NCBI GenBank assembly: GCA_944325885.1
Contig: CALVBT010000003.1
Location: 228,251 to 292,250 of the forward strand
Reading direction: 5' to 3'
Source: Candidatus Gastranaerophilales bacterium
GTDB taxonomy: Bacteria; Cyanobacteriota; Vampirovibrionia; Gastranaerophilales; Gastranaerophilaceae
Length of the DNA: 64,000 nucleotides
In this document: positions 38,154 through 57,174 of the stretch, in pieces
How positions within the stretch are numbered: position 1 is the first letter of the stretch
How the letters are laid out: every line of letters starts with the position of its first letter
Notes under the pieces: generated by a model
The model's database searches: none
Told to the model about the DNA's origin: nothing
The model's input: the letters and a program-made list of their open reading frames with translations, nothing else
Program-made: the position numbers and the translations under genes

Positions 38154-38822
38154 CTACCAGCTGATTTTACCTTCTCTAATCAGCTTTGCAGTACAACCCC
38201 AGCCATTTCCGCCTTCACCTGATTTACAATCATCTTCATTGCACCCCGGACATCCGCCGAGAGGATAAACCTGACCATCGCCGTTAACTGTAAAAGCAAA
38301 AGTATCAACACCCACCATATTAGGCTCTTTTTGTCCGTTCACATCTACTTCAAAATATGCACAACTGTTTTTTACATAATTGCTTTCTGTTCTGTTACAG
38401 CCATTAAATGCTTTTGCAGCCCACAGCATACCATCAGCAGTTGCAAAGGTGTACCAGCCTTTATCTGTTTGATATTTGTTTCCTGCCTGTCCTGCCAGTG
38501 TTTTTTGAGCATATTCATTACCAAAACATCCGCCATTATTTTTACAGTTCTGGGCAATATTAAATTTTTTCATATACATATTAGTAAAAACTTCTTCTGT
38601 ATTAGCCCATGGCCAGAGTTTTATTGGTCCGTATTCCTGTCTTAACTCTTTTGTAGCTGTAGAAACAGTATTGTAAGCCTTTAATACACGAGGGGGAATA
38701 GAACGTTCCTCCGAAACCTTTTGAAGTCCAGGAATTGTCATAGCTGCAATTACACCGATTATCATAAGGGTCACAAGCGTTTCTGCCAGTGTAAACGCTT
38801 TTATCATATTAAATTTTTTCAT
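38154..38822 (-). CDS. Type IV pilin / type II pseudopilin-like protein
   Basis: 222 aa. MKKFNMIKA then FTLAETLVTLMIIGVIAAM: class III signal with Glu5 and a hydrophobic N-terminal helix. The cleavage site has Ala at -1, not the usual Gly. The globular part contains DVNGQKEPNMVGVDTFAF, the same DxNG...PN..G.D motif as the 54-57 kb cluster, and ends WGCTAKLIREGKISW. It is closest to the 56463 protein, sharing IPGLQK, SEER, KAYNTVSTATKELR and EYGPIKLWP. AAAGGAG precedes the ATG. It follows wecB by 18 bases, probably in one operon. Confidence 0.88.
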   Translation of the reverse strand: MKKFNMIKAFTLAETLVTLMIIGVIAAMTIPGLQKVSEERSIPPRVLKAYNTVSTATKELRQEYGPIKLWPWANTEEVFTNMYMKKFNIAQNCKNNGGCFGNEYAQKTLAGQAGNKYQTDKGWYTFATADGMLWAAKAFNGCNRTESNYVKNSCAYFEVDVNGQKEPNMVGVDTFAFTVNGDGQVYPLGGCPGCNEDDCKSGEGGNGWGCTAKLIREGKISW

Positions 38823-51954: not shown

Positions 51955-52629
51955 ATGATACAACTAAGAGGCGTTACAAAAAAATATAAAAACAATTATG
52001 CACTGAAAAACATCAACCTTGACATTATGTCGGGCGAGTTTGTTTTTATCACGGGTTCATCCGGTGCAGGAAAATCCACCCTGATGAAGCTTTTGTATAA
52101 AGAAGAAACTCCGACCTCAGGCAGTGTAATGATTGGCGGAATAAATATTGCAAACCTGCCTTCAGAAAAAGTTCCGAACCTGAGAAGATGCATGGGGATT
52201 GTTTTTCAGGATTACAAACTGCTGATGAATCAGAGTGTCTATGACAACTGTGCATACGTAATAAGAACTCTCGGTATGAGTTCAAAAGAAATAGAAGCCC
52301 GTGTTACCGGTGCGCTGAAAGTCGTTGGACTTTTAGAAAAAATGAAAGCAAAACCGACAGAACTTTCAGGCGGTGAGCAGCAAAGAGTGTCCATTGCCCG
52401 TGCTATTGTAAACGGCCCGCCGCTTTTGATTGCGGATGAACCGACAGGCAACCTTGACCCCAAAAACTCCATGGAAATTATGCAGATTTTGGAACAGATT
52501 AACCAGAAAGGCATTACTGTCCTTGTGTCCACACACGACCACACAATGGTTAACTATTTTAGAAAAAGGGTGCTGACACTCGAGGACGGACAGATAATAA
52601 GAGATGTGCAGGCCGGAACCTATGAATAA
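51955..52629 (+). CDS. ftsE: Cell division ABC transporter ATP-binding protein FtsE
   Basis: 224 aa. Walker A GSSGAGKSTLMKLL, Q-loop GIVFQDYKLL, signature LSGGEQQRVSIARAI, Walker B LLIADEPTGNLD, His-switch VSTHDH. With FtsX it activates periplasmic peptidoglycan hydrolases at the septum. The ftsE-ftsX-HDOD order is probably one operon. Confidence 0.95.
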   Translation: MIQLRGVTKKYKNNYALKNINLDIMSGEFVFITGSSGAGKSTLMKLLYKEETPTSGSVMIGGINIANLPSEKVPNLRRCMGIVFQDYKLLMNQSVYDNCAYVIRTLGMSSKEIEARVTGALKVVGLLEKMKAKPTELSGGEQQRVSIARAIVNGPPLLIADEPTGNLDPKNSMEIMQILEQINQKGITVLVSTHDHTMVNYFRKRVLTLEDGQIIRDVQAGTYE

Positions 52630-52665
52630 TCATAGCCCCTCAGCCGCATTAACAGGAAGAAATAT

Positions 52666-53580
52666 ATGAGTGACGAGTCTACTAAAGCATTAATAAAAAA
52701 GAAAGTAAAAGCCCATATTCCAAAAGACTGGCTGAAAGAACTCAGAATAGTCTATCGCATCAGTCTGGAAACTATCTACGGAATAAAAAGAACAGGCTGG
52801 ATAAATCTAGCAATCATTACCACAATGGCTGCTATTTTAACGATTTTTGGCTCGCTGTTTCGCTTTACGCTTTCTTTAAACTCCTTTGTACACGAACTCG
52901 GCAACGTGCTTGAGATTTCTGTTTATGTAAAATCAGATACAAACACTGAAAATCTGGCAAAAGAAATAAGACAGCTCGAACACGTTGAAAGGGTAAAAAT
53001 CATACCAAAAGAAAAATCCTGGTCTGATTTAAAAAGAGAGTTTGATGTTCCGAATATAGAAAACCCTCTGCCTGATACACTGCACGTCAAGGTAGACAAA
53101 CCGGAAAATATAAACGCTGTATTTACAAAAATAAAGACCTACAACGGAGTAGAAGACCTCAATTACGCACAGGATATTGCAAAGAAAATGCAGTTCTTTA
53201 ACAACGTAATACACACAATAACTCTTGTTGTAGTCATACTTGTAGCTATTTTGACAATTACAATAATTAATAATACAATACAATTAGTTATTCAGTCCCG
53301 AAAAGAGGAAATAGAGATAATGCGCCTTATGGGTGTAAGCAACTGGTATATCAAGATTCCATTGATTATGCAGGGCGCAATTTACGGATTTTTGGGAGCA
53401 TTGATATCACTCGTGCCTTTAAATGCCGTAAACAACGGGTTAATAAATGTCCACAAGTTCTTTATGGTTCCGGCTCCGGTACTGGCTAACAATACTGTTA
53501 TACTGGTATTATTTATTATTGCAGTCGGCTTTGGTGCAGGCGGCAGTATGTTATCAATTAAAAAGCACTTACAGGTATAG
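52666..53580 (+). CDS. ftsX: Cell division ABC transporter permease FtsX
   Basis: 304 aa. Four membrane helices: about 45-70 (INLAIITTMAAILTIFGSLF), 185-208 (ITLVVVILVAILTITIIN), 235-260 and 275-295. The extracytoplasmic loop with EISVYVKSDTNTENLAKEIRQLEHVERVKIIPKEKSW is typical. IQSRKEEIEIMRLMGVSNWYIKIPLIMQGAIYGFLGALI is the coupling region. AGGAAG precedes the ATG. Confidence 0.94.
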   Translation: MSDESTKALIKKKVKAHIPKDWLKELRIVYRISLETIYGIKRTGWINLAIITTMAAILTIFGSLFRFTLSLNSFVHELGNVLEISVYVKSDTNTENLAKEIRQLEHVERVKIIPKEKSWSDLKREFDVPNIENPLPDTLHVKVDKPENINAVFTKIKTYNGVEDLNYAQDIAKKMQFFNNVIHTITLVVVILVAILTITIINNTIQLVIQSRKEEIEIMRLMGVSNWYIKIPLIMQGAIYGFLGALISLVPLNAVNNGLINVHKFFMVPAPVLANNTVILVLFIIAVGFGAGGSMLSIKKHLQV

Positions 53581-53585
53581 GGAAT

Positions 53586-54389
53586 ATGGCAATAAACGCA
53601 CAAGAAGTATTAGATAAAATCAAAGAAATTCCGGCAATGCCTAACGTAATCGTAAAGGCACTGGGTATTATAAAAGACGATACATCAGGAACAAAAGAAT
53701 TATCCGAAATTATGGCTTATGATCAGGCTTTGACATCTCAGGTATTAAAGCTTGTAAACTCCGCTTATTACGGTTTTGCACAGGAGATTACATCTGTAAA
53801 CAAAGCACTGGCACTGCTCGGTATGACACAGACAAAAAACATCATCATCGCAGTAGCAATGAAGCCGATGCTCACTTCCCAAGGCGGAAGAGATATGTGG
53901 AAGCACTCTCTAAAATGTGCGGTTGCAGCTGAAGCTCTGGCACAAAAATTAGGAATAATCGATCCGGGTGATGCTTTTACAGTCGGATTTTTACACGATA
54001 TAGGGAAAATTTTGCTGAATATTGTTGACACAATGACTTATCAAAAGGTAAGAACAGCTGTCAAAAACGGTATGGACGTAATTGATGCGGAAAATGATGA
54101 ATTTGAAACAAACCATTGTGATATGGGATTCTTGCTTGCAAAAAAATGGAAACTATCTGTATTGCTGGCAAATTGCATAAAATATCACCATGACCCGCTG
54201 TCATCATCTATGCCGCAGGTCAGCACTCTTGCTTATCTGGCAAACAAAATCTCTCACGAAGAACCCGATGTTTACGACGAAGAAATGGTCAAAGAACAGC
54301 TGGGTATCGAAGTAAGTGAGGTAATGAAAATAAGAGAAGATATTGAAGAAAAAGCAAATGTTCTGTTTTCTCAGCTCAATGCAGGCTAA
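53586..54389 (+). CDS. HDOD-domain protein
   Basis: 267 aa. The HDOD domain (about 10-210) has MPNVIVKALGIIKDDTSGTKELSEIMAYDQALTSQVLKLVNSAYYGF, LLGMTQTKNIIIAVAM, FLHDIGKILLNIV and LLAKKWKLSVLLANCIKYHHDP. HDOD proteins are signalling scaffolds or degenerate HD hydrolases; here the FLHDIGK motif keeps the HD pair. It starts 5 bases after ftsX, so it is co-transcribed. A specific role is not known. Confidence 0.88.
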   Translation: MAINAQEVLDKIKEIPAMPNVIVKALGIIKDDTSGTKELSEIMAYDQALTSQVLKLVNSAYYGFAQEITSVNKALALLGMTQTKNIIIAVAMKPMLTSQGGRDMWKHSLKCAVAAEALAQKLGIIDPGDAFTVGFLHDIGKILLNIVDTMTYQKVRTAVKNGMDVIDAENDEFETNHCDMGFLLAKKWKLSVLLANCIKYHHDPLSSSMPQVSTLAYLANKISHEEPDVYDEEMVKEQLGIEVSEVMKIREDIEEKANVLFSQLNAG

Positions 54390-54427: not shown

Positions 54428-55102
54428 ATGAAAAAGACGGTCACTTTATGTGTTAAAAAGAACAAACATTCAAAAGGAGTTTCTAAAGCATTTACTTTAG
54501 CAGAAACACTAATTACTCTGGTTGTAATTGGTGTTGTTGCGGCAATGACAGTTCCTGCTGTAAAAAATCATACAGAAGAAGTTCGATATGTTGCTCAGGT
54601 AAAAAAGGCCTATGCTGATATCAGCAACGCAACAGGTGTACTGGAAACAAAATACGGCGATTGCAGATTCTGGAGCTTCGGAAAAGCAGGCTCATATACA
54701 CAAGACGGAAGTCAGGTCATTGACTGGTACAAACAGGCCATGAACGCAACGCCGACAACAAATTATACATCTAATGCACTTACAAATGAAGGCGGATCAA
54801 ATCCATCTTTTTCAACCGCAGACGGGATGGTATGGGCATTGTTCCCCGGCGGATACAGCTCAGGCGGAGTTGCCCTTGTTGATGTTAATGGAGATGAAGG
54901 ACCAAATGTCAGAGGCGTAGACATACACGGTTTTAGAATCGGTCAAAGCGTGGCTGATAACGAATCCGGAGTATTCGCTTTAGGTGATGGTGTTAATGAC
55001 ACAAATAGTGTCTGGGCATGCACTGCCTATGCATTAAATCACGGAAAAATGCCTTGGTTGTCTGGAGGGGATCCTGATTGCAAAAATTATTACAAAAAAT
55101 AG
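54428..55102 (+). CDS. Type IV pilin/pseudopilin-like protein 1 of the tandem cluster
   Basis: 224 aa from ATG 54428; the ATG at 54413 is an alternative start. A long basic leader (KKNKHSKGVSKA) precedes FTLAETLITLVVIGVVAAM. The mature part has GDCRFWSFGKAGSYTQDG, TADGMVWALFPGG, LVDVNGDEGPNVRGVDIHGF and WACTAYALNHGKMPWLSGGD near the end, with Cys residues able to pair. It is the first of four genes read in the same direction within 2.7 kb, just past the HDOD gene. Confidence 0.87.
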   Translation: MKKTVTLCVKKNKHSKGVSKAFTLAETLITLVVIGVVAAMTVPAVKNHTEEVRYVAQVKKAYADISNATGVLETKYGDCRFWSFGKAGSYTQDGSQVIDWYKQAMNATPTTNYTSNALTNEGGSNPSFSTADGMVWALFPGGYSSGGVALVDVNGDEGPNVRGVDIHGFRIGQSVADNESGVFALGDGVNDTNSVWACTAYALNHGKMPWLSGGDPDCKNYYKK

Positions 55103-55119
55103 AAATTACGGAAGTTTGT

Positions 55120-55764
55120 ATGAAAAAATCAAATAAACAAAAAGCATTTACCTTGGCAGAAACTCTTTTTACACTTGCAATTGTAGGAGTTGTTGCTGCG
55201 CTCACAGTTCCTACGTTAAAGCAGTCTGCTGACGAAGCTACTCACGTTGCTGCAGTAAAAAAGGCTTATGCCATAGCTAAAGAAGCCACAACAAATCTTG
55301 AACAAAAAGAAGGCGACCTCTCAACCTGGCCATGGAATAATACAACACAAATGAATAAGCTGTATCAAAGTGTAATGACAACCATTGGCGGAGATGCCTG
55401 GAAGGCTTATCAAACTTTCCAAATTGACGGGACTAACTGGTCATATATTGGGCCTGATTCATATTTTATGACATCAGACGGGATGACCTGGTATGTATAC
55501 AACTGGAACGCAGGCGCAAAATACGGCTCCGGAGCAACTGTATACGGATGTATTCACGTAGACACAAACGGACCCAAAGAACCTAATGCTCTGGGTGTAG
55601 ATGTACATGCGTTCACTGTTTCTTCTGACGGGGTAAACCCTATGGGCGACGGGCTTCATGACCAGAACAAAACCTGGGCATGCACAAACTATGCTATCAT
55701 GCACAGCAAAATGCCATGGTTAAAAGGAGGAGACACCAACTGTTACTCATATTATGAAGGCTAA
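55120..55764 (+). CDS. Type IV pilin/pseudopilin-like protein 2 of the tandem cluster
   Basis: 214 aa. Start ATG 55120 (MKKSNKQKA then FTLAETLFTLAIVGVVAAL), preceded by GGAAG at 6 bases. An in-frame start at 55078 overlaps the previous gene and is less likely. The body has WPWNNTTQMNKLYQSV, TSDGMTWYVYNW, VDTNGPKEPNALGVDVHAF and the ending WACTNYAIMHSKMPWLKGGD. The end region is clearly related to cluster protein 1, so these two are the closest pair. Confidence 0.87.
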   Translation: MKKSNKQKAFTLAETLFTLAIVGVVAALTVPTLKQSADEATHVAAVKKAYAIAKEATTNLEQKEGDLSTWPWNNTTQMNKLYQSVMTTIGGDAWKAYQTFQIDGTNWSYIGPDSYFMTSDGMTWYVYNWNAGAKYGSGATVYGCIHVDTNGPKEPNALGVDVHAFTVSSDGVNPMGDGLHDQNKTWACTNYAIMHSKMPWLKGGDTNCYSYYEG

Positions 55765-55792
55765 TCACTAAATAAATATAAAGGATAGGATT

Positions 55793-56449
55793 ATGAATAA
55801 AAAAATTAAAGCGTTCACTCTGGCAGAAACACTTGTTACATTAATGATTATCGGTGTAATTGCTGCTATTACAATACCGACATTAAAAGAAAATTCTGAC
55901 AAAGATGCAAACATAGCTCTGCTCAAAAAAGCAAACTCAACAGCAGGCAATATGTTTGCAGACCTCAGAGCAAAATACGGCCCTGCACCGTACTGGACTT
56001 ATAAAGATCAGAGAGTGTTTAAAACAGGACAGGATGCAACAGCAAGAGAACTGTACTCCACATCTTTGAGCCTTGCAAGCAACACACTCCCCTCCGGGTA
56101 CTCTGCAATGAACCTTAAAGGCGAAACTCTGGGCAAAGAAGCAGAAATAGACGGAACAAAAACAGACTTCACAAGACCGCTCATCACGGCTGACGGCATG
56201 ATGTGGTTCCCGTCACAAGGATATGGCAACTGCTCAGGTACAAACAAAAGATGCGGTTTGCTCGCTGTTGACGTAAACGGTGCAAAAAAGCCAAACCGTA
56301 TGGGTGTTGATTTATTTGTATTCAACATTACACCGGACGGTGCTGTTGCACTCGATGTTGATGACTGTAACAATTTATCCGGAGCAGGATATGGCTGCGG
56401 AAAAAAACTGCTCATAGACCCTGATGCATTGAACTTTATATATGAATAA
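55793..56449 (+). CDS. Type IV pilin/pseudopilin-like protein 3 of the tandem cluster
   Basis: 218 aa. MNKKIKA then FTLAETLVTLMIIGVIAAI. The mature part has NSTAGNMFADLRAKYGPAPYW, ITADGMMWFPSQGYGNCSG, LAVDVNGAKKPNRMGVDLFVF and ends YGCGKKLLIDPDALNFIYE, without the Trp-rich ending of the others. AAGGATAGGATT lies directly before the ATG. It overlaps the frame of gene 4 by a few codons if the longer start of gene 4 is used. Confidence 0.87.
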   Translation: MNKKIKAFTLAETLVTLMIIGVIAAITIPTLKENSDKDANIALLKKANSTAGNMFADLRAKYGPAPYWTYKDQRVFKTGQDATARELYSTSLSLASNTLPSGYSAMNLKGETLGKEAEIDGTKTDFTRPLITADGMMWFPSQGYGNCSGTNKRCGLLAVDVNGAKKPNRMGVDLFVFNITPDGAVALDVDDCNNLSGAGYGCGKKLLIDPDALNFIYE

Positions 56450-56462
56450 CAAGGAAAAACAT

Positions 56463-57122
56463 ATGAAGAATAAAAAAATTAAAGCGTTCACTTTAGCAGA
56501 AACACTTGTTACATTAATGATTATCGGTGTAATTGCTGCTATGACTATTCCGGGGCTGCAAAAAACTTCGGAAGAAAGAACTGTTCCTCCAAAAGTTCTT
56601 AAAGCATACAATACTGTTTCTACAGCGACAAAAGAGCTGAGAGCAGAATACGGACCGATAAAACTATGGCCGTTTAATAATGTCACAAAACTTATGGATG
56701 AAATGTACATCCCTAAGTTTAATGTAACGAAAAACTGTAAAACAGACGGAGGCTGTTATAAAGCAGGATACCAGCCAAAATCGCTGAATGGTGCGAACAA
56801 CAACGATTTTCAAAACGGCAGCGGTTGGTATACATTTGTGACTGCTGACGGTATGTATTGGGCTGTCGGCGGCGGCAATGGCACCTGTTCTTATACAGAA
56901 GGAACATATATCAAAAAAGGATGTATCCATTTTGAAGTAGATGTAAACGGGCCAAAAGACCCGAATATGATAGGTATTGATATATTTGGTTTTGAAGTTT
57001 CGCCTGACAGCGTATATCCATTTGGCGGATGCCCCGGATGTGACACATCCAGCTGCAGCTCAAGCGGCAACGGCTGGGGATGCACAGCAAGAATTATTAA
57101 AGAAGGCAAAATCAGCTGGTAA
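56463..57122 (+). CDS. Type IV pilin/pseudopilin-like protein 4 of the tandem cluster
   Basis: 219 aa from ATG 56463 (MKNKKIKA then FTLAETLVTLMIIGVIAAM), with AAGGA 7 bases upstream. TADGMYWAVGGGNGTC, FEVDVNGPKDPNMIGIDIFGF, GGCPGCDTSSCSSSGNGWGC and GKISW at the end. It is a near twin of the isolated protein at 38154 (shared SEER, PP.VLKAYNTVSTATKELR, EYGPIKLWP), so one probably arose by a copy of the other. A terminator follows. Confidence 0.88.
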   Translation: MKNKKIKAFTLAETLVTLMIIGVIAAMTIPGLQKTSEERTVPPKVLKAYNTVSTATKELRAEYGPIKLWPFNNVTKLMDEMYIPKFNVTKNCKTDGGCYKAGYQPKSLNGANNNDFQNGSGWYTFVTADGMYWAVGGGNGTCSYTEGTYIKKGCIHFEVDVNGPKDPNMIGIDIFGFEVSPDSVYPFGGCPGCDTSSCSSSGNGWGCTARIIKEGKISW

Positions 57123-57141: not shown

Positions 57142-57174
57142 AAAAAGGAACAACTTATTTGTTGTTCCTTTTTT
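57142..57174 (+). terminator. Bidirectional terminator after the pilin-like cluster
   Basis: A 13-bp stem AAAAAGGAACAAC/GTTGTTCCTTTTT with a 6-base loop. It also serves the converging gene at 57209. Confidence 0.9.

Follow-up and report, generated by a model that had tools for sequence, protein, structure and literature searches.

Type IV pilins (PF07963/TIGR02532) share a basic leader that ends in a small residue, a mature chain with Phe1 and Glu5, a hydrophobic helix and a strand-rich head. A passage of PMC10191384 states that the leader 'invariably ends with' Gly or Ala, and the same two residues are given for the leader end in passages of PMC8179133 and PMC3244431. Type IV pilus genes were also reported, in a passage of PMC5877343, from a Gastranaerophilales genome of the termite gut. 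Here, we describe five prepilin-like genes, four of them in tandem, in a 64,000-nucleotide stretch of a Candidatus Gastranaerophilales bacterium (hereafter the window, i.e., the whole stretch of DNA analysed), located at 228251–292250 of contig C3 in a 2.17 Mb draft genome with 19 contigs (the host genome, G000). All five carry Ala at the last leader position (−1). In the host and its relatives, Ala is accepted at −1 and interchanges with Gly, and the main interest of the locus lies in the variation of this residue across the host family rather than in the window itself.

The four tandem genes lie on the + strand. Gene 1 (54428–55102; 224 amino acids, aa) has the leader MKKTVTLCVKKNKHSKGVSKA/FTLAETL, where the slash marks the predicted cleavage site, and the motif DVNGDEGPNVRGVD at 54881–54922. 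Gene 2 (55120–55764; 214 aa) reads MKKSNKQKA/FTLAETL with DTNGPKEPNALGVD at 55561–55602, gene 3 (55793–56449; 218 aa) reads MNKKIKA/FTLAETL with DVNGAKKPNRMGVD at 56270–56311, and gene 4 (56463–57122; 219 aa) reads MKNKKIKA/FTLAETL with DVNGPKDPNMIGID at 56940–56981. Gene 5 (38154–38822, − strand; 222 aa), with DVNGQKEPNMVGVD at 38304–38345, is 66% identical to gene 4 across the mature part. All five proteins have a common layout consisting of a basic leader, KA/FTLAETL, a hydrophobic stretch, a head of approximately 180 residues that contains D(V/T)NG...PN..G(V/I)D, and a tail with Cys. The proteins of genes 1–5 contain 4, 3, 4, 8 and 8 Cys, respectively. The motif begins with DVNG in four proteins and DTNG in gene 2, and ends in GVD in four and GID in gene 4. 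TIGR02532 was matched above its cut-off by all five proteins and PF07963 by genes 2–4, with gene 1 (20.3 bits) and gene 5 (17.8 bits) below the PF07963 cut-off of 21.2. Each protein further has the features of a class III signal peptide (a basic leader ending in Gly or Ala, a hydrophobic stretch and Glu5). The initial annotation, made from the letters of the window, had described the four tandem genes and the gene at 38154 as pilin-like with a shared motif, and this description held for all five. The genes probably encode type IV pilins, and their host appears, judging from its affiliation, to be a non-photosynthetic cyanobacterium of Gastranaerophilales type that lives in the gut.

The predicted fold of gene 4, the sole protein of the five that was modelled, has a pilin-type layout. 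In the AlphaFold2 model of its mature form, built with 48 relatives (predicted local distance difference test score 92.2; predicted template modelling score 0.85), a helix at 3–55 and a second helix are followed by a strand-rich head (strands 80–178). A VIA structure comparison placed two pilins in its top rows, Thermus thermophilus PilA4 (Z 4.8; root-mean-square deviation 4.7 over 109 positions) and the PAK pilin (Z 4.5; 4.0 over 123). On the opposite side of the balance, pilin rows were found at Z 2.4–4.8 mixed with unrelated rows, and none of the 229 Foldseek matches of the model reached E 0.001. Because these structural matches are weak, it is the signal peptide, together with the long helix and the general architecture, that identifies the proteins as pilins; naming a closer structural family for the head was dropped, given the empty Foldseek result at E 0.001 and VIA Z values of < 5. 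Unlike described type IV pilins, the window proteins have heads without a Pfam family (at E 1, a scan of the five yielded, beyond PF07963, a single chance-level viral match with E 0.18), carry the DxNG...PN..GxD motif, and belong to a set in which most host copies have Ala at −1. Among the NCBIfam models, that of the minor pilin ComGE (NF041013) gave the highest score in four of the proteins (25.3–31.3 bits); however, all five scored 17.4–31.3 bits against a cut-off of 49, with matches limited to the first 40–60 positions, and they are not members. At E 0.1, Pfam DUF6613 (PF20318) had matches in 12 of 49 relatives (best E 2.1e-9), including one relative (L059) above the cut-off over residues 25–84, but it matched none of the five window pilins at E 1, and the two relatives inspected covered just the first third of the model. 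Nothing on DUF6613 or on a pilin expansion was found in the open-access literature searched.

The host genome was scanned with TIGR02532 at a permissive threshold (E up to 10), giving a genome-wide count of 21 prepilin-like open reading frames (ORFs), 17 of them above the cut-off. The −1 residue was Ala in 18 and Gly in three (15 Ala and 2 Gly above the cut-off; 3 Ala and 1 Gly in the four below). The profile favours Gly and hence does not inflate the Ala count. Of the three Gly pilins, two (L001 and L003) carry a version of the head motif, and a pattern scan of the host genome detected no FTLAE preceded by Ser, Thr, Cys or Arg. The search for prepilin peptidases in the host found one, on contig C5. 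Like the bacterial PilD, it has both expected domains, the methylase-type A24_N_bact (PF06750; E 3.8e-36) and Peptidase_A24 (PF01478; 31.8 bits against a cut-off of 26.5), two CxxC pairs, a catalytic Asp and the motif GEGD. These two domains with two catalytic Asp define bacterial prepilin peptidases; what would set it apart is the acceptance of Ala and Gly substrates in one cell. These data fit a peptidase that accepts small residues, and the host enzyme looks ordinary.

The same two residues were followed through 292 genomes of the phylum by two pattern scans (AFTLAE and GFTL[AVITM]E), with reversed patterns as controls. The Gly pattern permits A, V, I, T and M at +4 whereas the Ala pattern permits A alone, so that the Ala share obtained is an underestimate, if it is biased at all. 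In the host family (130 genomes), there were 3304 AFTLAE and 1898 GFTL[AVITM]E sites; 64 of these genomes had at least five sites of each kind, 31 had at least 20 of each, and 15 had no AFTLAE. Outside the order (161 genomes), AFTLAE occurred at most twice per genome, and the reversed control reached up to 8. Among the named loci, 66 Ala and 18 Gly were counted in 84 ORFs; these loci came from a search that was itself based on AFTLAE, and the count was not used as a frequency. Exchange of the two residues was directly visible at one conserved place in genus g2, which reads LG/FTLAEVL in G003, KA/FTLAEVL in G012 and CA/FTLAEVL in G006. The pilins at this place are 62%–69% identical, the neighbouring genes of G003 and G012 share 95% and 79% identity, and the adjoining pilin has Gly in all three genomes. 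Similarly, the closest gene 4 relative among those compared in the sister species G182 is 59% identical and reads LG/FTLAETL. A quick tree of 152 pilins, built with the −1 column left out, required at least 21 Ala/Gly changes among the 126 rows that were scored for these states (31 of them Gly); one row with a mis-set motif (L139, state F) is among the 152 and outside this count. In a scan for the peptidase, 125 of 136 family genomes had one match and none had two. A single enzyme thus seems to handle Ala and Gly sites in many cells of the family.

Several points weigh against this reading. The −1 counts derive from fixed DNA patterns, which miss variants such as FSLAE. The 21 changes on the tree were below those in all 300 shuffles (23–31), indicating that Ala and Gly are clustered by descent; the exchange is therefore frequent but not free. 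Passages of PMC6497953 and PMC4471445 name a conserved Gly alone at −1, although the three papers that state Gly or Ala make the earlier view of Gly as nearly universal there an overstatement. Moreover, no Peptidase_A24 match was obtained in G037, which has 36 Ala and 66 Gly sites, or in G063, each 99% complete. Since these two genomes lack a match despite containing both kinds of sites, the scan evidently misses divergent enzymes; their peptidase may be divergent or missing, and a second, divergent peptidase could be present in any genome, the host included.

A shift of the host prepilin peptidase from Gly to Ala, as proposed in the initial annotation, would account for the 18 Ala residues among the 21 host genes, and its appeal grows at the genus level, where some sister genera are nearly all Ala (Ala:Gly site ratios of 25:1 in g3 and 399:25 in g12) and one is nearly all Gly (3:76 in g14). 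The enzymes also differ: among 85 aligned peptidases, an uneven sample of the family, the second catalytic motif reads GxGD in 74 and EVGD in two (G040 and G049; L224 and L249), and GEAD replaces it in all eight peptidases of the nearly all-Gly g14 (L084, L087, L088, L097, L102, L103, L104 and L222) and in G228 (L218). Peptidases of the GxAD type are known from archaea, according to a passage of PMC4307647. However, GEAD represents at most a few events, and other Gly-only or Gly-rich genomes (G148, G267 and G288) read GxGD; with ancestry as a confounder, GEAD was set aside as the determinant of Gly-only substrates and is kept as a lead only. For the host itself, the three Gly prepilins beside the one peptidase found led us to reject a shifted enzyme, the initial annotation having itself named Gly in other host pilins as the observation that would speak against its proposal. 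The coexistence of both kinds of sites in 64 of the 130 family genomes, the switching of pilins at one conserved place and the acceptance of Ala in the papers cited above argue in the same direction, and we regard the shift as very unlikely. It is even less probable that the Ala prepilins stay uncut and act as membrane-anchored surface proteins. Ala at −1 is a poorer substrate than Gly for PilD of Pseudomonas aeruginosa, which would give this idea some basis. Nevertheless, Phe1 and Glu5 (columns F2 and E6) are invariant in a 27-row alignment, a peptidase was found in nearly all family genomes scanned, and closely related pilins interchange Gly and Ala, all of which is at odds with uncut anchors.

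A different question is whether the five proteins are subunits of a pilus at all or pseudopilins of a type II secretion system. The genome-wide matches to PilC-, PilB/PilT- and PilD-type families all fell outside the window, in agreement with the initial annotation, which had noted that no assembly gene was nearby. Adjacent genes for a secretin, a PilB-like ATPase and a PilC-like platform protein were located on host contig C18, and a second platform-like gene on contig C3 at 87 kb; a flagellin gene is also present in the host. The secretin scored higher with GspD than with PilQ (212 vs. 172), and the platform protein with GspF than with PilC models (308 vs. 262), both in favour of type II secretion. 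The position of PilB, PilC and the secretin below their equivalog cut-offs weakens the case for a type IVa pilus machine. These secretin and platform scores are all below their own cut-offs, though, and the assembly ATPase prefers PilB over GspE (542 vs. 493). In addition, three host proteins exceeded the cut-off of the PilT/PilU family (TIGR01420), whereas a passage of PMC10191384 states that the PilT-type motor was lost in type II systems. The window proteins resemble the major pseudopilin GspG/PulG (TIGR01710) in their N-terminal helix, which accounts for most of their 17.7–23.2 bits against a cut-off of 88.85, and they are not members of that family. Type II pseudopilins are thus an unlikely identity for these proteins, and we retain that of type IV pilins. 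The pseudopilin GspG is also known for a calcium site, and the DxNG...PN..GxD loop might be such a site, locking the head. In the gene 4 model, D152–D165 forms a hairpin loop between strands 147–152 and 166–171, and D152, N154, P159, N160, G163, D165 and C199 are invariant in a 49-row alignment (C190 is conserved in at least 90%). The invariant D152, N154, N160 and D165 would offer acidic and amide side chains suited to a metal. Conversely, the invariant Pro and Gly would suit a turn with a purely structural role equally well, no calcium-binding Pfam family matches the window pilins at E 1, and most rows of the alignments (A1, A2 and A3) had been selected because they carry the motif, which accounts for part of its invariance. 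A calcium site is therefore possible, with the balance tilting moderately towards other explanations of the loop.

The head was examined separately from the signal peptide by using a profile (A3) of 42 rows, including the window sequences, from which the signal peptide had been removed. At a threshold of E 0.001, it matched 131 of the 292 genomes of the phylum sample, i.e., all 130 of the host family and one other of the order, and none of five genomes of another family in the class or of the remaining 156 of the phylum. Since up to 12 candidates per genome were considered, these results describe presence and not copy number. The window genes matched at approximately 1e-50 as members of the profile; for this reason, the weight of the result lies on the many genomes outside it. 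Matches of a head-only profile in 131 of 292 genomes argue against chance similarity, and, as judged from these sequences, the head is a real domain that, in the phylum sample, is confined to this order. Three of the 80 named relatives bore the names of other groups (Fusobacterium sp. CAG:439, Heliobacteriaceae and Muribaculaceae) and are presumably misnamed bins. Detected by pattern, the motif was present in 16 of 20 host pilins and 14 of 22 pilins of G069, and is thus the rule without being universal.

The variation at −1 extends beyond Ala and Gly in one relative. In G230 (genus g20), FTLAE is preceded by a Ser or Thr codon at 59 sites, against one Ala and four Gly sites; the codons are 50 TCN, 7 ACN and 2 AGY. 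All 26 pilin ORFs taken around the sites with the Ser/Thr pattern (L261, L262, L270 and L298–L317 among the loci) have Ser (22) or Thr (4) at −1, the Ala and Gly sites lying outside that set, and 25 of them carry the head motif. As TCN and ACN are one step from GCN, the codons suggest that these sites descended from Ala. A binning error is disfavoured because the peptidase of G230 shares contig C6 with four Ser/Thr sites. Five other g20 genomes that were searched had zero or one Ser/Thr site each. Across the family, the −1 residue could have drifted with the peptidase or been freed by it, with Gly in g14 (GEAD), Ala in g3, g5 and g12, both in g1 and g2, and Ser/Thr in G230; we put this forward tentatively, at slightly less than even confidence. 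Separately, eight identical TGCTTCACGCTCGCAGAG sites were noted in G136 (C3, C5, C8, C33, C35, C39 and C49), which are probably a repeated element and would have Cys at −1 if coding. Neither Ser/Thr at −1 nor large pilin repertoires were met in the open-access literature searched.

Such repertoires may be considerable in some relatives. At least 100 AFTLAE sites were counted in four of the 130 family genomes (G069, G090, G059 and G128; approximately 2 Mb each), with 190 in the ca. 2.3 Mb of G069, 129 in G090 and 114 in G059. The first 30 AFTLAE sites of G069 (L049–L078) correspond to 22 distinct full pilin ORFs, seven of which contain two or three AFTLAE units. Pairs of units in this genome are 54 bases apart, with four in a row on C16 (G069:C16:14316–14495), and pairs 60 bases apart occur in some genomes of genus g12. 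Sites outnumber genes because leaders are tandemly duplicated within ORFs. Long upstream frames with repetitive DNA and the similar sequence CHPEL(V/A)... were also seen at L049–L078, and look like a dispersed repeat family beside pilin genes. As with the Ser/Thr and GEAD sites, these points were read at the level of sequence.

Within the window, pilin gene 1 is preceded by genes for an ABC ATPase (FtsE-like by position), FtsX and an HDOD-domain protein (51955–54389, + strand) separated by short gaps, and this block stops 38 bases 5′ of gene 1. No + strand terminator-like site was listed between the HDOD gene and gene 1, in a terminator scan that is itself weak. The pilin genes may therefore be co-transcribed with the ABC ATPase, FtsX and HDOD genes or transcribed from their own promoter. 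A terminator-like inverted repeat of 13 pairs with T after it on both strands (57142–57173; without an assigned strand, listed on the − strand) directly follows gene 4; the region contains seven such sites compared with 5.3 ± 2.0 in shuffles, making this call a weak one. The promoter scan likewise gave a number of sites close to that of shuffles and constitutes weak evidence. Within the genus, the four-gene arrangement was not seen in G182 and G130 (two genomes, one place each), where the pilin relatives retrieved are solitary and at other positions. The pilin gene at 38154 is adjoined by a gene for a glycine-rich protein (PF21722; 37421–38107, + strand), and in another host locus (L026), a PF21722 domain is placed after a prepilin signal.

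The most probable mechanism for these proteins is as follows. The prepilins would enter the membrane via Sec with the basic leader in the cytoplasm, where the prepilin peptidase would cut past the small −1 residue, Ala or Gly alike, and then methylate Phe1. The mature pilins would assemble into a type IV filament that can retract and is powered by the products of the secretin–PilB–PilC genes on C18 and by the PilT-family ATPases. Paralogous heads, built on the shared DxNG...PN..GxD hairpin and a C-terminal Cys pair, might then provide a surface of variable chemistry that serves to adhere or to bind DNA.

Overall, the pilin identity, the shared motif and the location of the assembly genes elsewhere were borne out, and the proposed change in peptidase preference was not. 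The window contributes further members to a pilin family that is restricted to the order and has heads without a Pfam match in this analysis, and the survey shows that Ala at −1 should not be viewed as unusual. The large pilin repertoires of gut Gastranaerophilales met with no explanation in the literature searched. If true, the Ser/Thr sites of G230 break the stated Gly-or-Ala rule, and the variation across the family would offer a natural series for reading the −1 pocket. Since genera differ in having Gly, Ala or Ser/Thr at −1, what sets the specificity of the prepilin peptidase there becomes testable by comparison and enzyme swaps.

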